A stretch of DNA of 33,944 bases from contig PKTT01000018.1 of assembly GCA_002869015.1 (NCBI GenBank), forward strand, positions 1 through 33,944, in the 5' to 3' direction. The position numbers were made by a program, and so were the translations under genes. This DNA is from Deltaproteobacteria bacterium (GTDB lineage Bacteria; Desulfobacterota; Deferrisomatia; Deferrisomatales; BM512). Under the pieces are notes generated by a model. It searched no databases. It saw only the letters and a list, made by a program, of their open reading frames with translations, and had not been told where the DNA came from. Positions 22,371 to 28,076 of the stretch are shown one piece after another. How positions within the stretch are numbered: position 1 is the stretch's first letter; every line of letters starts with the position of its first letter.

Positions 22371-23527
22371 CAACCTCTCCTTGGAGTCGATACCTGCTCG
22401 ATTGCGCTACCCAATACCATGTCGTCTCTATGGACGACCTCGTCATAGTATTTATATCCGAGTCTATCAACGATCTCCCACGATGCCAACCCGGCGATTG
22501 CTTCAACCTCCTTGGCCGAGTAGTGCGTCAGTCCCTTCGCCACTCGCTTTAAATCACGGTCTACAATCCACACGGCGTCGCCACGGTCAAAATCGCCACG
22601 GCAGGAGACTATGCCTTTGGGCAGAAGAGAGGTTCCCCGTGATGCGATAGCACGTGCCGCTCCCTCGTCAACCACTATCTGCCCGCTTGACTTAACAGTG
22701 TAGGCTATCCAGTGCTTGCGCCTAGCCAGGCGATCTCCCTCTGCCTTGAAGGCCGTGCCAATCTTCTTGCCGGCAAATATATCAACAAGCGCATGGGGGC
22801 GCCGGCCCGACGCGATCACGGCCTTAGCGCCCGCGTGGACTGCGCGGCGCACGGCGGTGAGCTTAGATGCCATCCCACCCGTGCCGACGAGGGTCTTTGA
22901 CTCGCCGATGAACTCATCCGGGTTTTCTTCTGATAGCTCAACCGACTCTATGAGAGTCGCATCCGGGTTTGTTTTGGGGTCTTTGTCATACAGCCCCTCC
23001 ACATCCGAGAGGATTATCAGGCAATCCGCCTCGATAAGGTTGGAAACCAGCGCTGAGAGGTTGTCATTGTCCCCGAAGCGGAGCTCTTCAACCACGACGG
23101 TGTCGTTTTCATTGATTACCGGTACTACGTCACGCTTAAAAAGCTCATTCATCGTGTTCTTAGCGTTCTGGTAGCGCCTTCTATTGTGGAAATCCTCCCT
23201 CGTGAGGAGTATCTGGGCCACAATCATGCCGTGGGCGTTGAAGTGCTCGCGGTAGGTCCACATGAGATTTAGCTGCCCCACCGAAGCTAGCGCCTGCTTC
23301 TCCGGTATGGTAGCCGGGGGTTCGCTGAAGCCGAGACGCCCCATACCCGCGGCAACGGCTCCCGAGGAAACAATCGCGACCTCGACCCCCTCTTTGGTCA
23401 ACGCCTTGATATCCTCGGCAAGCCACGAGAAGAGCTCGCCGGAGAGGGCCCTCTTCTCATCGGTTAGCACCTGGCTTCCGAGCTTAACTACAACCCTCTT
23501 TACATCTTTAAAAGCACCGCTAATCAT
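22370..23527 (-). CDS. proB: Glutamate 5-kinase
   Basis: 385 residues. Phosphorylates glutamate, the first and feedback-regulated step in proline synthesis. The amino-acid kinase domain (about 8-260) has [27 protein letters not shown] and [15 protein letters not shown] domain follows at about 280-360. The start ATG overlaps the 3' end of obg by eight bases. proB next to obg is common in many bacteria and the order obg-proB-proA-nadD-rsfS is a well-known cluster. Confidence 0.96.
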
Positions 23528-24545
23528 CTTCGACGCGCTCCTTATTCATGCTCAAGAGCTTCTCCCCAAGGGCGCGGACCACCGGCTGAAGTCCATCCCC
23601 GGCAACGGCAGAGATCATCCAAACCCGCTTGACCCCCGCCTCTTCGGCGAAACGTTTGGAAAGCTCCTCCGCCCCTTCACGCGCCTCGGTTATGTCCATC
23701 TTGGTCAAGACGACAAATTCCGGCTTGGCGGCCAGCTCGGCGCTGAACTTATCAAGCTCGCGCCTTAGAGCTATATATTTCTCCACCGGGTCCTCGCCAT
23801 CCACAGGGTCGACGAGGTGGAGCAGCAGCCTTGTACGCTCCACATGCTTTAAGAATTGGATACCTAGCCCAACCCCCTCGCTCGCCCCTTCGATGATGCC
23901 GGGGATATCGGCAACTACGAAGGCCCTCTCTTCACCCCAGCTCACAACGCCAAGGTTTGGCACCAGGGTGGTGAATGGGTAATCGGCTATCTTGGGGCGG
24001 GCCGCGCTTATTCGTGAGATGAGGGTCGACTTTCCCGCGTTTGGAAAGCCCAACAGCCCGACGTCGGCCATCAGCTTCAGCTCAAGCCTTACCTTGGTTT
24101 TGACTCCGGGAAGCCCCTGCTGGGCGTAGGTAGGCGCCCTATTTGTGGAGGTGGCGAAGCGCGCGTTGCCCTTCCCCCCCTTGCCACCCTCAAGCAGCAC
24201 TACGGGAACCCCCGGCTCGGTGAGGTCGGCGAGTAGCTCTTCGCTCTCCGTGTCAATTACCATAGTGCCTACCGGCAGCCGTATGAGCAGATCCTCACCA
24301 TTTTTGCCGTGCTTATTTGAGGATTGGCCTGGCTCACCATGTTTTGCCTTGAGACGCTTCTTCTGCCTGAAATCCAGGAGGCTCGTCATCGAGGTGTCCG
24401 CGACAAGCACAACGTCTCCGCCTTTGCCGCCGTCGCCGCCGTCAGGGCCGCCCTTGGGTACGTACTTCTCTCTTCGGAAGGAGGATGACCCCCTACCTCC
24501 GTTACCTGACGCTACCTCTATCTCTACTTCATCTACAAATCTCAC
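23520..24545 (-). CDS. obg: Obg-family GTPase (ObgE/CgtA)
   Basis: 341 residues. Binds the 50S subunit and takes part in ribosome assembly and stress signalling. The glycine-rich Obg fold fills about 1-158, including PKGGPDGGDGGKGGDV. The G domain has G1 GFPNAGKST at 166-174, G2 in DYPFTTL and G3 DIPGI at 213-217. The G4 motif reads TKMD at 281-284 instead of NKxD, a variation in the guanine-binding residue. There is no long C-terminal extension. The start is GTG at 24545 with GAGG six bases upstream. It comes right after the rpmA terminator, in the conserved order rplU-rpmA-obg. Confidence 0.95.
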   Translation of the reverse strand: MRFVDEVEIEVASGNGGRGSSSFRREKYVPKGGPDGGDGGKGGDVVLVADTSMTSLLDFRQKKRLKAKHGEPGQSSNKHGKNGEDLLIRLPVGTMVIDTESEELLADLTEPGVPVVLLEGGKGGKGNARFATSTNRAPTYAQQGLPGVKTKVRLELKLMADVGLLGFPNAGKSTLISRISAARPKIADYPFTTLVPNLGVVSWGEERAFVVADIPGIIEGASEGVGLGIQFLKHVERTRLLLHLVDPVDGEDPVEKYIALRRELDKFSAELAAKPEFVVLTKMDITEAREGAEELSKRFAEEAGVKRVWMISAVAGDGLQPVVRALGEKLLSMNKERVEDD

Positions 24546-24577
24546 GTTCAGCCTCGCTAGCTCCTGCGGTTAAACGC

Positions 24578-24611
24578 AAAAAGGCCCGGCGGGGCATTAC
24601 CCGTCCGGGCC
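24578..24611 (-). terminator. Rho-independent terminator after rpmA
   Basis: On the minus strand GGCCCGG and CCGGGCC form a 7-bp stem. An additional CGGG/CCCG pairing inside it gives a nearly continuous hairpin, and TTTTT follows. It lies between rpmA and obg, so most ribosomal-protein transcripts should stop here while some may read through into the obg run. Confidence 0.82.
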
Positions 24612-24643
24612 GAAATCTACATCTCAAGGCCGGGAAGGACGCC

Positions 24644-24916
24644 CTAGGCGGCACCCTCCTCGGTAGGGACTACATTGACGTGTGTGCGGCGTTCGCGGCC
24701 TTTGGCCTCAAACTCCACAACGCCGTCGATAAGCGCGAAGAGGGTATAGTCTTTACCCATTCCGACATTCTTGCCGGGCTTGTATTTGGTGCCGAGCTGG
24801 CGAACGAGGATATTTCCCGCTACGACGGCCTGACCGCCAAAGCGCTTTACGCCACGCCTCTGACCCGCTGAGTCGCGACCGTTCCTTGAACTACCACCCG
24901 CTTTTTTATGAGCCAT
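24644..24916 (-). CDS. rpmA: 50S ribosomal protein L27
   Basis: 90 residues. The N terminus [16 protein letters not shown] is the mature form that reaches the peptidyl transferase centre; it lacks the cleavable extension found in Firmicutes. The conserved [14 protein letters not shown] and HPGxNVG-like region (here [18 protein letters not shown]) are present. The gene lies 17 bases after rplU and ends before a clear terminator. Confidence 0.97.
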
Positions 24917-24933
24917 TTTACCTTACCTCGTCA

Positions 24934-25245
24934 CTATGCTTCTATGGAGTCGACTTTAATGCCGGTGTAAGCCTGGCGGTGACCCTGTTTTTTACGGAAA
25001 CCTTTACGGCGCTTCATCTTGAAGACGATGATCTTTTTGCCGCGACCCTGCTCGACGATAGTGCCGGAAATTTTGGCGCCATCAACTGCGGGCGCTCCGA
25101 CCTTGAGGTCGCCGCCGTCGGATACGAGGAGGACGTCATCTAGGACGATCTTCTCACCGACTTCACCCGCGAGCTTCTCGACCTTGAAGAAGTCGCCTTC
25201 GGAAACAACGTACTGTTTTCCGCCGGTTCGCACTACTGCGTACAT
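24934..25245 (-). CDS. rplU: 50S ribosomal protein L21
   Basis: 103 residues from ATG at 25245, starting MYAVVRTGGKQYVVSEGD, the standard L21 N terminus. The C-terminal KMKRRKGFRKKQGHRQAYT binds 23S rRNA. The frame is open for 37 more codons upstream, but those would cover the promoter and leader hairpin. The chosen ATG has GGAGG eight bases upstream. The gene has its own strong promoter and a leader hairpin that could regulate it. Confidence 0.97.
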   Translation of the reverse strand: MYAVVRTGGKQYVVSEGDFFKVEKLAGEVGEKIVLDDVLLVSDGGDLKVGAPAVDGAKISGTIVEQGRGKKIIVFKMKRRKGFRKKQGHRQAYTGIKVDSIEA

Positions 25246-25258
25246 ACTATTTTCCTCC

Positions 25259-25280
25259 AAAAACCCCGCTACGGCGGGGG
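25259..25280 (-). terminator. Terminator-like hairpin (attenuator candidate) in the rplU leader
   Basis: Minus strand CCCCGC, loop CGTA, GCGGGG, then TTTTT. The T run ends exactly where the rplU Shine-Dalgarno GGAGG (25258-25254) begins. The hairpin lies about 17 bases after the predicted transcription start and downstream of the promoter, so it could stop both new rplU transcripts and read-through from mobA. Feedback by L21, as for known L21 leaders, is possible but not shown here. Confidence 0.65.
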
Positions 25281-25302
25281 TGGCTGTCAGACAAGAGCAG
25301 GG

Positions 25303-25331
25303 AATATATAAAATAGCACCCCCCCTGTCAA
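25303..25331 (-). promoter_or_regulatory. Strong sigma-70-like promoter for rplU-rpmA
   Basis: Minus strand -35 TTGACA (25331-25326), a 17-base spacer and -10 TATATT (25308-25303). Only one of twelve positions departs from consensus. The predicted start is near 25296, giving a leader of about 50 bases before rplU. Confidence 0.8.
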
Positions 25332-25376
25332 GCGTCTTATGACTGAATTGTAGCAATATCCATAGGAAATATGATC

Positions 25377-25979
25377 CTAAAGCCCCTCGCCATCAAGCTC
25401 AGCAAGGGCGGCAAGGTCCTCCGGGCGATTGACATTGAAAAATGAACGACCGTCGGGATCGAGTCCAGCCAGCTCTTCGCCGGACACCTCTCTCGTTTTA
25501 AGCATGCCAAAAAGGGCTCTTACCCTAAGGTTACCCGACTCAATCTGCGACGCGACCTTGCTGAAAGATGAGGCGCGGTATATTGCAAGCAGCGGCTCGT
25601 ACCCCTCGGGGTTTTTGGGCACCACTATCTCGTATCCGTCAGCCCGCTCCACCAACCCCTTAATCAGCTCACGTCTTATGAGGGGCATATCGCATCCGAC
25701 GCATAGCACCAAAGCGTCTTCGCCAACTTTTTGCTTTGCATAGTTTAAAGCAGTCGCAATACCGCCGAGGGAGTCGGCTCCGGGGAAGAGGTCCGGTACG
25801 GTGACCACCGGCAGTCCCACGTCTGTACCTATGCAAATCGTCTCACCGGCAAATGGGTGAACCGCTTCGTAGACTCTCTCAACGAGCGGCACTCCACCTG
25901 TTGGCACGAGGGACTTGTTAACCCCCATACGGGTTGCCCGCCCTCCCGTTAGGATGGCGGCAAAATCAAGCTGCTGCAA
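25377..25979 (-). CDS. mobA: Molybdenum cofactor guanylyltransferase (MobA-like)
   Basis: 200 residues. Adds GMP to molybdopterin to form the guanine dinucleotide cofactor used by DMSO-reductase-type enzymes. The nucleotide-binding signature is LTGGRATRMGVNKSL at 10-24, with asparagine where many members have aspartate before the lysine. CVGCDMPLIRRELI carries the metal-binding Asp, and FFNVNRPEDL is the C-terminal signature. The start is TTG at 25979 with GGAGG five bases upstream, one base after the selA stop codon, so the two are translationally coupled. A generic NTP-transferase role cannot be fully excluded. Confidence 0.87.
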   Translation of the reverse strand: MQQLDFAAILTGGRATRMGVNKSLVPTGGVPLVERVYEAVHPFAGETICIGTDVGLPVVTVPDLFPGADSLGGIATALNYAKQKVGEDALVLCVGCDMPLIRRELIKGLVERADGYEIVVPKNPEGYEPLLAIYRASSFSKVASQIESGNLRVRALFGMLKTREVSGEELAGLDPDGRSFFNVNRPEDLAALAELDGEGL

Positions 25980-25980
25980 G

Positions 25981-27387
25981 TTACCCTCCAGCCTCCAGGC
26001 AGGCCGCCGCCAGAGCTTTGGCGACCAGAGGATAATCTTCAGGCATCAACGTTCGCGGGTCGAAAAGGAGGGAATCCTCCTTGAGCCTCGCCACCACAGG
26101 AACCTCCTGAGCCCTGAGCCAGCGCTCGACTTTGGAGAGGCCCCCGTTGGTTGATGTAACTCGTGCGCACCACGTAGGAAACTTTGCCAGGGGAAGCGAA
26201 CCACCTCCGGCTTCCGAGCTCTCCGGCACCACCTCGACTGCAAATGAGGCGGGCAAAACTTCTCTAATCAAGCCCGCCAGCATCTCGGCGTCCGCCTTTA
26301 TCGATTCAGCATCTTTTGTGAGCATCATCACTACGGGCACTTCCCGTCGGGCCCTCTCTGGGTCACGGTAAAGCCTTAACGTCGCCTCAAGCGCCGAGAG
26401 AGTCACCTTGTCAGGCCTTAGCGCTCTCATCAGCGGGTGCCTTCGGCAAAGCTCTACGGCGCGCTTTTTTCCGACTATGATGCCGGCTTGCGGGCCGCCA
26501 AGGAGCTTGTCGCCTGAGAATGTTACAAGGTCGGCGCCCGTAGAAACCCGCTCCGCGACCATTGGCTCCCTACCACCCTCGAAGTAGCCCAGGTCGTGGC
26601 ATAGGCCTGAGCCTAAGTCTTCTACGACAAAGAGGTTGTTCTTAAGCCCAAGCCCGACAAGCTCTGCGGTGGTAGCCTCCTGGGTGAAGCCAAGGACGCG
26701 ATAGTTGGAAGTATGCACCTTCATCAGCATCGCGGTTTCCGGATTTATGGCTGCCTCATAGTCCCTTAAGTGCGTTTTGTTTGTGGTTCCCACCTCCCGG
26801 AGGAGTGCCCCCCCCTGAACCATGACTTCGGGGACTCGAAAAGCACCACCGATCTCAACCAGCTCGCCACGGGATACTATTACTTCCCTCCCCTTCGCCA
26901 ACGCACCTAAGACAAGGAGTACCGCCGCGGCGTTATTGTTCACTACGATGGCATCCTCTGCACCCGTGATCTCAAGCAGAATCCCACGCACAAGGTCATG
27001 CCGGTAGCCACGGGTTCCGCGCTCAAGGTCATACTCTAGGTTGCAATAGCCCGAAGCGTTTTTCATTGCTTCGACTGCTGCTGCGGTCAGGGGAGCGCGG
27101 CCCAGGTTAGTGTGCAGGACCACGCCCGTTGCGTTTATCACCCGCTTAAATGAGGAGGCATCAAGGCGGCGCGAACGCTCAACAACAGCGCTCACAATAC
27201 CATCGGCTGATGTATCAGGAGTCTCACCCGCAAGCACCGACTCCCTAAGCTCACCTAAAACCTCGCGAATTGCGCGCAGGGCGACGGAGCGGGGGATTGT
27301 ACCCTCATCCACCATCGATGAAACGGACTCCTCCTGGAGGAGCTTTTCAACCGCAGGTATATTTCTCAACAATTCATTTTTGCCCAT
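25981..27387 (-). CDS. selA: L-seryl-tRNA(Sec) selenium transferase
   Basis: 468 residues from ATG at 27387. A pyridoxal-phosphate enzyme that converts Ser-tRNA(Sec) to Sec-tRNA(Sec) with selenophosphate. The PLP lysine is K294 in TFSGDKLLGGPQAG; NATGVVLHTNLGRAPL at about 85-100 and VVNNNAAAVLLVL are further family hallmarks. The frame is open 73 codons further upstream into plsY, but the ATG at 27387 has AAGGAG five bases upstream and gives the family N terminus (ELLRNIPAVEKLL). Implies that the organism makes selenoproteins; selB, selC and selD are not in the window. One base separates it from mobA. Confidence 0.95.
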   Translation of the reverse strand: MGKNELLRNIPAVEKLLQEESVSSMVDEGTIPRSVALRAIREVLGELRESVLAGETPDTSADGIVSAVVERSRRLDASSFKRVINATGVVLHTNLGRAPLTAAAVEAMKNASGYCNLEYDLERGTRGYRHDLVRGILLEITGAEDAIVVNNNAAAVLLVLGALAKGREVIVSRGELVEIGGAFRVPEVMVQGGALLREVGTTNKTHLRDYEAAINPETAMLMKVHTSNYRVLGFTQEATTAELVGLGLKNNLFVVEDLGSGLCHDLGYFEGGREPMVAERVSTGADLVTFSGDKLLGGPQAGIIVGKKRAVELCRRHPLMRALRPDKVTLSALEATLRLYRDPERARREVPVVMMLTKDAESIKADAEMLAGLIREVLPASFAVEVVPESSEAGGGSLPLAKFPTWCARVTSTNGGLSKVERWLRAQEVPVVARLKEDSLLFDPRTLMPEDYPLVAKALAAACLEAGG

Positions 27388-27397
27388 TAAGGCTCCT

Positions 27398-27988
27398 TCA
27401 CCCCTTGTCGCCCAGGCGGCTCTCCTCGCCACGAGATATTCGCTGGAGGTTGCCTGAATGTTTGTATGTGGCGATAAGGGCAAATGCAATTGATAGCGCC
27501 ACAATATACCTACCTTCACCGACAAGATAGGATGCAAAAGGCAGAGAGATCGATGAAGCGACGCTGGCAAGCCCCACATAACGCCAACCAATGAGCACCA
27601 AAACAAAGATGGCGAAGGCGCATAATAGGGTAAGAGGCGAAATTGCTAAAAATACCCCGGCCCCTGTCGCGATCCCTTTGCCGCCTTTAAACTTAAGATA
27701 AATGGGGAAACAGTGTCCAACAAAGGCGGCCAGCCCCACAGCCGCCGCTCCCCATTCGGGCTCCAGTAAGTTCGTGGCGGCCAAGACAGGTAGCGCCCCT
27801 TTGAGAAGGTCGGCAATCAGCGTGAGTGCGCCCGCCTTCTTGCCCTGCGTCCTCATAACGTTTGTCGCGCCTATGTTGCCGGAACCACTAAGACGAGGGT
27901 CGTGCCCGCCGAGAGCTCTCGATATTATAACGCCGAATGGCACCGCTCCCAGCAGGTATGCGCCAAACAGCCAAGCGTAAATCTCCAT
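27398..27988 (-). CDS. plsY: Glycerol-3-phosphate acyltransferase PlsY
   Basis: 196 residues from ATG at 27988, an integral membrane protein with about five hydrophobic spans. It transfers acyl from acyl phosphate to glycerol-3-phosphate, the first step of phospholipid synthesis. The three family motifs are visible: LSGSGNIGATNVMR, KFKGGKGIATGAGV and a later SxxA-rich region. The frame begins earlier at 28030, but ATG 27988 has GGAG four bases upstream and starts just before the first membrane segment. It lies 10 bases before selA and diverges from the amidohydrolase gene. Confidence 0.93.
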   Translation of the reverse strand: MEIYAWLFGAYLLGAVPFGVIISRALGGHDPRLSGSGNIGATNVMRTQGKKAGALTLIADLLKGALPVLAATNLLEPEWGAAAVGLAAFVGHCFPIYLKFKGGKGIATGAGVFLAISPLTLLCAFAIFVLVLIGWRYVGLASVASSISLPFASYLVGEGRYIVALSIAFALIATYKHSGNLQRISRGEESRLGDKG

Positions 27989-28076
27989 TTTTCTCCAAAT
28001 CGCCAAGGGTAAACGGCAAAAAAGTAACACAGCAGCGAAGCCGTAACAAGCTAAGCCTCTCTATCGCTACGTCCTA

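Follow-up and report, generated by a model that had tools for sequence, protein, structure and literature searches.

A short hairpin followed by a run of thymines, lying between the promoter of a ribosomal protein gene and its ribosome binding site, raises the question of whether it ends transcription, controls translation or serves as structure on the mRNA. Such an arrangement precedes rplU in a stretch of 33,944 nucleotides from a bacterium of the order Deferrisomatales; the whole of this stretch is referred to below as the window.

Organization of the rplU promoter and leader

The initial annotation had described a near-consensus promoter and a CCCCGC-CGTA-GCGGGG hairpin whose TTTTT abuts the GGAGG of rplU. 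All of these parts are present on the minus strand (Table 1), and the promoter, TTGACA-17-TATATT, agrees with the consensus at 11 of 12 letters. The spacing of about 17 bases given there between promoter and hairpin holds when counted from the likely transcription start near position 25296, while the distance from the -10 element is 23 bases. Downstream of rplU are genes for L27 (PF01016), an Obg GTPase (PF01018) and, by Pfam, an amino acid kinase with a PUA domain, which we read as proB. Upstream and in the same direction lies a gene for a MobA-like NTP transferase (Pfam NTP_transf_3, PF12804). An rplU match was found in 55 of the 59 genomes searched, the window's own genome included. The window's own leader is denoted L001, and the other Deferrisomatales rplU leaders L002 to L011.

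Table 1 Features of the rplU promoter and leader, in window coordinates.
Feature	Position	Strand	Basis or remark
-35 element TTGACA	25331-25326	minus	promoter scan
-10 element TATATT	25308-25303	minus	promoter scan; 17-nt spacer from -35
Sigma-70-type promoter of rplU, TTGACA-17-TATATT	25303..25331	minus	scan and order leaders
5' untranslated leader, about 50 nt	25246..25296	minus	start placed by its distance from -10
6-bp hairpin CCCCGC-CGTA-GCGGGG	25264..25279	minus	predicted -11.1 kcal/mol
T5 tract TTTTT, terminator-like	25259..25263	minus	shared with L002 and L003; interrupted or missing in most of the other families
Shine-Dalgarno (SD) sequence GGAGG	25254..25258	minus	invariant across the 11 order leaders
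rplU start codon ATG	25245-25243	minus	
rplU, ribosomal protein bL21, 103 aa and stop	24934..25245	minus	Pfam Ribosomal_L21p (PF00829), E 4.8e-41

Occurrence of the promoter and hairpin in Deferrisomatales

The order sample comprised 12 Deferrisomatales genomes, of which all except G004 gave an rplU match; L031 to L036 were left out as repeats of leaders already counted (the L036 leader is identical to L010, G006). All 11 leaders contain TTGACA, with -10-like hexamers ranging from TATATT to TATCCT located 17-18 nt downstream. The conserved hairpin that an attenuator would call for in close relatives is likewise present, on sequence, in every one of the 11 leaders, which span 8 genera: a candidate hairpin ends 3-8 nt before GGAGG, the hairpins being hand-picked and the 3-8 nt range set after the sequences had been seen. 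The stem letters vary, from CCCCGC/GCGGGG in the window's genus to CCCCG/CGGGG in L003, GGCCCC/GGGGCC in L006 and CCCCT/AGGGG, with a nine-base loop, in L004. No loop or stem letters common to the whole order were found among the 11 leaders.

A free hairpin search before the SD sequence gave energies of -5.7 kcal/mol or lower in all 11 rplU leaders and of -9 or lower in 9, although it chose another hairpin for L005 and a longer one for L008 and L011. The same search on leaders of rplM, rpsB, rpsT and rpmB reached these levels in 6 and 2, respectively, of the 41 scored (42 were extracted; L165, whose contig begins 40 nt before the start, was skipped). When the rplU leaders were folded alone, the mean probability of the outer five pairs ranged from 0.33 (L004) to 0.99 (L007), and in L001 these five pairs have probabilities of 0.92-0.996. 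With 30 nt of coding sequence added, the mean pair probability of the hairpin is at least 0.75 in seven leaders (L001, L002, L006, L007, L008, L009 and L011), 0.50 in L003, 0.44 in L005, 0.28 in L004 and 0.02 in L010. The minimum-energy fold of L007 with coding sequence, computed from a slightly different start, does not contain the hairpin.

Exact matches to GGGGTTTTTGGAGG occur six times in the 12 genomes; three are rplU leaders, and the other three (L177, L182 and L185) have no start codon within the short stretch examined. Upstream of rplM in L131, L132 and L134, which belong to one genus, CTTCCGG-CTTTCGT-CCGGAAG is located near the likely transcript start. In the window's own genome, CGCCGTAATTGCGGCG-CTTTTTGGAG precedes a chorismate mutase/prephenate dehydrogenase gene (L120, about 9108-9075, minus strand).

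Comparison with chance expectation

GC-rich leaders often fold, and shared descent could keep such a fold in view across an order, so that the hairpin would owe its recurrence to chance. Folding energies before the SD sequence barely beat those of shuffled sequences (L001, p 0.073; Stouffer z -1.40 over 10 leaders, not significant), as this account would have it. With position taken into account, shuffles match the leaders less often: a hairpin of the observed strength ending 3-8 nt before the SD sequence arose in shuffles with p 0.008 for the window, and the same test over the 11 leaders ranged from 0/1000 (L002) to p 0.127 (L009). Single leaders at p 0.087-0.127 (L005, L007 and L009) fit a chance fold, while the recurrence of one hairpin place in 8 genera with differing letters does not, with a Fisher p of about 4e-6 for one leader per genus, a value that ignores relatedness and uses a range chosen post hoc. 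L002, being nearly identical to L001, was omitted from the combined tests.

Gene starts elsewhere point both ways. In a crude gene sample from the window's own genome, a stronger hairpin ends no more than 10 nt from the SD sequence at 5 of 81 starts, going by the values listed. Only 6 of the 81 reach an energy of -10, and this argues against chance. For the GC-rich relative G007, hairpins of -10 or lower occur at 22 of 46 starts; the starts were called crudely and many are probably wrong, but the figure speaks against significance of the hairpin in GC-rich families. The loss or low probability of the hairpin in L010 and L004 once coding sequence is added also favours chance. A generic terminator scan of positions 23500-28000 found 7 candidates against 4.2 +/- 2.2 in shuffles, which is unremarkable; with no regional excess of terminator-like matches, one match alone proves little. 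Taken with the constraint described below, chance appears to us a rather improbable account of the hairpin.

Sequence constraint in the leader

L001 and L002 differ at a single one of 56 leader positions, which lies in the hairpin loop. At the four-fold sites of rplU the count is 8 of 39, and the sequence upstream of the leader has diverged. This constraint is not expected of a chance fold. Between L001 and L003, 15 of 31 four-fold sites have changed, and most of both arms, T5 and the SD sequence are kept. The letters retained beyond the stem suggest that, in the window's family, more than plain structure is involved. The genus of L006 and L007 behaves otherwise: leader and four-fold sites differ alike (7 of 56 and 5 of 36 positions), indicating no excess constraint there, and the variation of the L006-L008 leaders at the four-fold-site rate is what a chance fold would give.

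Pair changes were counted in L006-L008 only, because MAFFT gave no stem alignment between families. Two of 12 stem columns vary, both still paired as G-U, and two of four loop columns vary. No two-sided compensatory change occurs among these three sequences, the only genus set that could be aligned. Taken as a yardstick, the order's own rpsB leaders have conserved letters and several two-sided pair changes, unlike the rplU hairpin, which across the order has neither. These structured leaders lie upstream of rpsB in 11 Deferrisomatales genomes (L141-L151); in an Rfam search of L141, L147, L148 and L151, only L151 gave a match, below threshold, to t44, which we take to be the rpsB leader.

Terminator-like features of the hairpin

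The initial annotation regarded the hairpin as a candidate attenuator. In such a scheme, hairpin and T5 would terminate rplU transcription near +38 whenever L21, or some other factor, is in surplus. We scored the leaders by stem energy per length plus a weighted T-tract. The score is 33 in L001 and L002, 21 in L003 and 15 to 23 in L009, in keeping with attenuation, as are the promoter in front of the hairpin in all 11 leaders and the retention of T5 and arms from L001 to L003 despite the change at four-fold sites. It is marginal in L011 (1.4) and negative in 6 of 11 leaders (L004-L008 and L010, with L006 only at -3.0), which tells against attenuation. A GC-rich stem followed directly by a T-rich tract, the mark of an intrinsic terminator, is found in the window, where the terminator scan also detects it, and not in those 6 of the 11 order members. 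The T-run is therefore not order-wide, and from these sequences the hairpin is probably not a conserved transcription switch.

Within the window's own genome, 22 of 128 sampled gene ends score positive, 7 of them below 33, as attenuation would allow, and 15 above the rplU hairpin; each gene-end score is a maximum over many positions within 100 nt, whereas the rplU score is for one place. The 15 higher-scoring ends have stems of -10.9 to -23.4 kcal/mol, and 9 of the 15 carry T6 or T7. The rplU hairpin lies within the range of predicted terminators of its genome, towards the lower end. It shares with them a GC stem followed by a T-tract, but the higher scorers mostly have T6-T7, whereas the T5 of rplU runs into the SD sequence.

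An attenuator would also be expected to have a rival structure. The B. subtilis rplJL leader, as described in part of PMC4538822, forms an anti-antiterminator, an antiterminator and a terminator, and the operon is attenuated by its own product, L10(L12)4. Although both ribosomal protein leaders contain a terminator-like hairpin, that of rplU has a single predicted hairpin in place of the three overlapping structures of rplJL. No structure is predicted before the 3' arm in L001 and L002 (0.0 kcal/mol), and hence no antiterminator, which speaks against an RNA-only switch there and leaves room for a protein-driven one; weak structures precede the 3' arm in L003 (-0.9), L006 (-2.2) and L009 (-4.3). 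The attenuator proposal is weakened by the missing or broken T-run in most of the order, by the lack of a predicted antiterminator in L001 and L002 and by the 15 of 128 gene ends that score higher, although the window's hairpin itself has a terminator-like score and L001 and L003 share T5. Regulated attenuation seems to us unlikely overall.

The upstream mobA-like gene

The initial annotation also considered that the hairpin might insulate rplU from read-through out of the mobA-like gene. In the window this gene runs in the same direction as rplU and stops about 130 bases upstream of it, an arrangement suited to such a role. A BLASTP search (E 1e-3, open frames of at least 70 aa) found a mobA-like gene upstream in 6 of 11 leaders (L001, L005, L006, L007, L008 and L010), at about 130 to 815 bases. 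There was no match within 1.5 kb upstream in L002, L003, L004, L009 and L011, and yet L002 and L003 keep both hairpin and T5. The promoter precedes the hairpin, moreover, so rplU's own transcripts would be stopped too. In view of the 5 of 11 loci without a mobA-like match in the 1.5 kb searched, an insulator is highly improbable.

Ribosome entry and possible L21-dependent control

A different possibility is a translational operator, in which bL21 would bind the hairpin and block ribosome access to the adjoining SD sequence. In favour of an operator, the hairpin adjoins the SD region and precedes rplU, whereas the four other ribosomal protein genes mostly lack one; short hairpins also precede rplU in some Myxococcota. 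The predicted accessibility of the SD sequence, though, is much like that of shuffled leaders, which gives no predicted effect on ribosome entry, and loop and stem letters are unshared across the order, unlike those of the rpsB leader. Since the rplU hairpin lacks rpsB-like conservation across the order, sequence-specific L21 binding becomes less likely.

In many minimum-energy folds the pyrimidine-rich 5' end is base-paired to the SD region. Sequestration of the SD sequence in this way was dropped as a candidate: accessibility resembles that of the shuffles, and a CTTT-like start also follows, by eye, the promoters of rpsT, rplM and rpmB.

The initial annotation called the leader much shorter than the known L21 leader of Firmicutes and possibly a different solution; that it is not the Firmicutes leader is supported by Rfam. 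The L21 leader model RF00559 gave no match at the window site, at the gathering score or with E up to 10, and none at the gathering score in L006, L008, L010 and L011. Of three Firmicutes rplU loci used as controls, L041 (Syntrophomonadaceae) matched with 46.5 bits, and L052 and L098 fell below gathering. The RF00559 element is, like the leader in the window, a structured leader before rplU, but it is a 77-position model with letters of its own, which the leader in the window does not match. Nothing credible was found at the site; four sub-threshold Rfam matches lay far under their gathering scores and were rejected.

A passage of PMC3766115 reports the L21 leader motif as confined to Firmicutes and Thermotogales. 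The review PMC10931766 states, in the portion relevant here, that E. coli rplU-rpmA does not respond to its own products, which weighs against an operator, and the main text of a paper on 20 candidate leaders (PMC7247131) does not contain the terms L21 or bL21. For Shewanella, part of PMC2659441 lists a predicted structured rplU 5'-UTR, a computed RNA motif before rplU outside Firmicutes and in that respect similar; its table row carries no terminator or attenuator mark, and the likeness is one of description, the sequences being uncompared. Our literature search returned no paper on the rplU leader in Deferrisomatales. We regard an L21-binding operator as unlikely.

A more specific form of feedback can be imagined, in which a minimal element of about 50 nt, with one stem next to the SD sequence, reads L21 levels by SD blocking in most of the order and by added termination where T5 is present; it would have an origin apart from the Firmicutes L21 leader, with the Myxococcota rplU leaders perhaps in parallel. 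This composite we hold to be doubtful. Were L21 feedback to act through this hairpin, it would represent a second solution to the control of L21, in the form of a very small ribosomal protein leader.

Proposed role of the hairpin

We tentatively favour a role for the hairpin as a stem in the 5'-UTR that acts on the rplU mRNA and that, in some lineages, carries a weak terminator-like tail. This reading draws on the place of the hairpin in 8 genera, its rarity in shuffles and before the four other genes, the L001-L002 constraint, the G-U pairs kept in L006-L008, the negative terminator scores and the contrast with the rpsB leaders. Weighing against it are the folding energies close to those of shuffles, the lack of two-sided changes in L006-L008, whose leaders vary about like four-fold sites, the lower hairpin probability with coding sequence in L003, L004, L005 and L010, the SD accessibility near that of shuffles, the G007 starts and, in the window's family, the letters kept beyond the stem. 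We rank it first, followed by the L21 operator, then by attenuation and chance on a par, and last by the insulator. The presence of the stem, and not its letters, is kept across the order, which is why we interpret it as plain structure on the mRNA. In this pathway, the rplU operon of Deferrisomatales would have a strong promoter of its own, giving an mRNA whose leader is about 50 nt long if the start is placed correctly, and a short G+C-rich stem would form 3-8 nt ahead of the rplU ribosome binding site. The stem may then shield or compact the 5' end and set the context for ribosome entry. In the window's lineage, the adjoining T5 may lead to a degree of premature termination or to pausing, or may offer ribosomal protein S1 a U-rich site.

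Stem-loops in the 5'-UTR stabilise the ompA mRNA of E. coli. Like these, the rplU hairpin is a short stem near the 5' end of a highly expressed mRNA; it differs in that about 17 unpaired bases would precede the stem if the predicted start is right. The case cautions that a hairpin and thymines before a ribosome binding site need not constitute an attenuator, and a comparison of the T-tract across relatives helps to tell attenuation from structure on the mRNA.

rplU leaders outside Deferrisomatales

A hairpin of -5.7 kcal/mol or lower occupies the corresponding place in 15 of 89 rplU leaders taken from other groups, and 8 of these 15 carry a Myxococcota name in the record title. The leader patterns found outside the order are leads, not results. 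In one set (L065, L067, L068, L069, L071, L072, L086, L104 and L107), whose records mostly bear Myxococcota titles, there is a small stem, for example CCCTG-AAACC-CAGGG; GGAGG is absent, and an invariant GGATTCA precedes the start. When these nine were aligned, 81.5% of cells pair, a level matched by 19-20 of 500 shuffles, and two pairs have a two-sided change, both in L086; L075 was aligned and then left out of the pair counts, its stem lying elsewhere. Four larger rplU leaders (L074, L085, L108 and L110, at about 1430-1510), from Myxococcales or 'Deltaproteobacteria', share CTTCCGTCG ... GACAACCTGGAGG and have no Rfam match at gathering. In these four, 3 of 16 pairs have a two-sided change, and a 5' CTTCCG is predicted to pair with the TGGAGG of the SD sequence.
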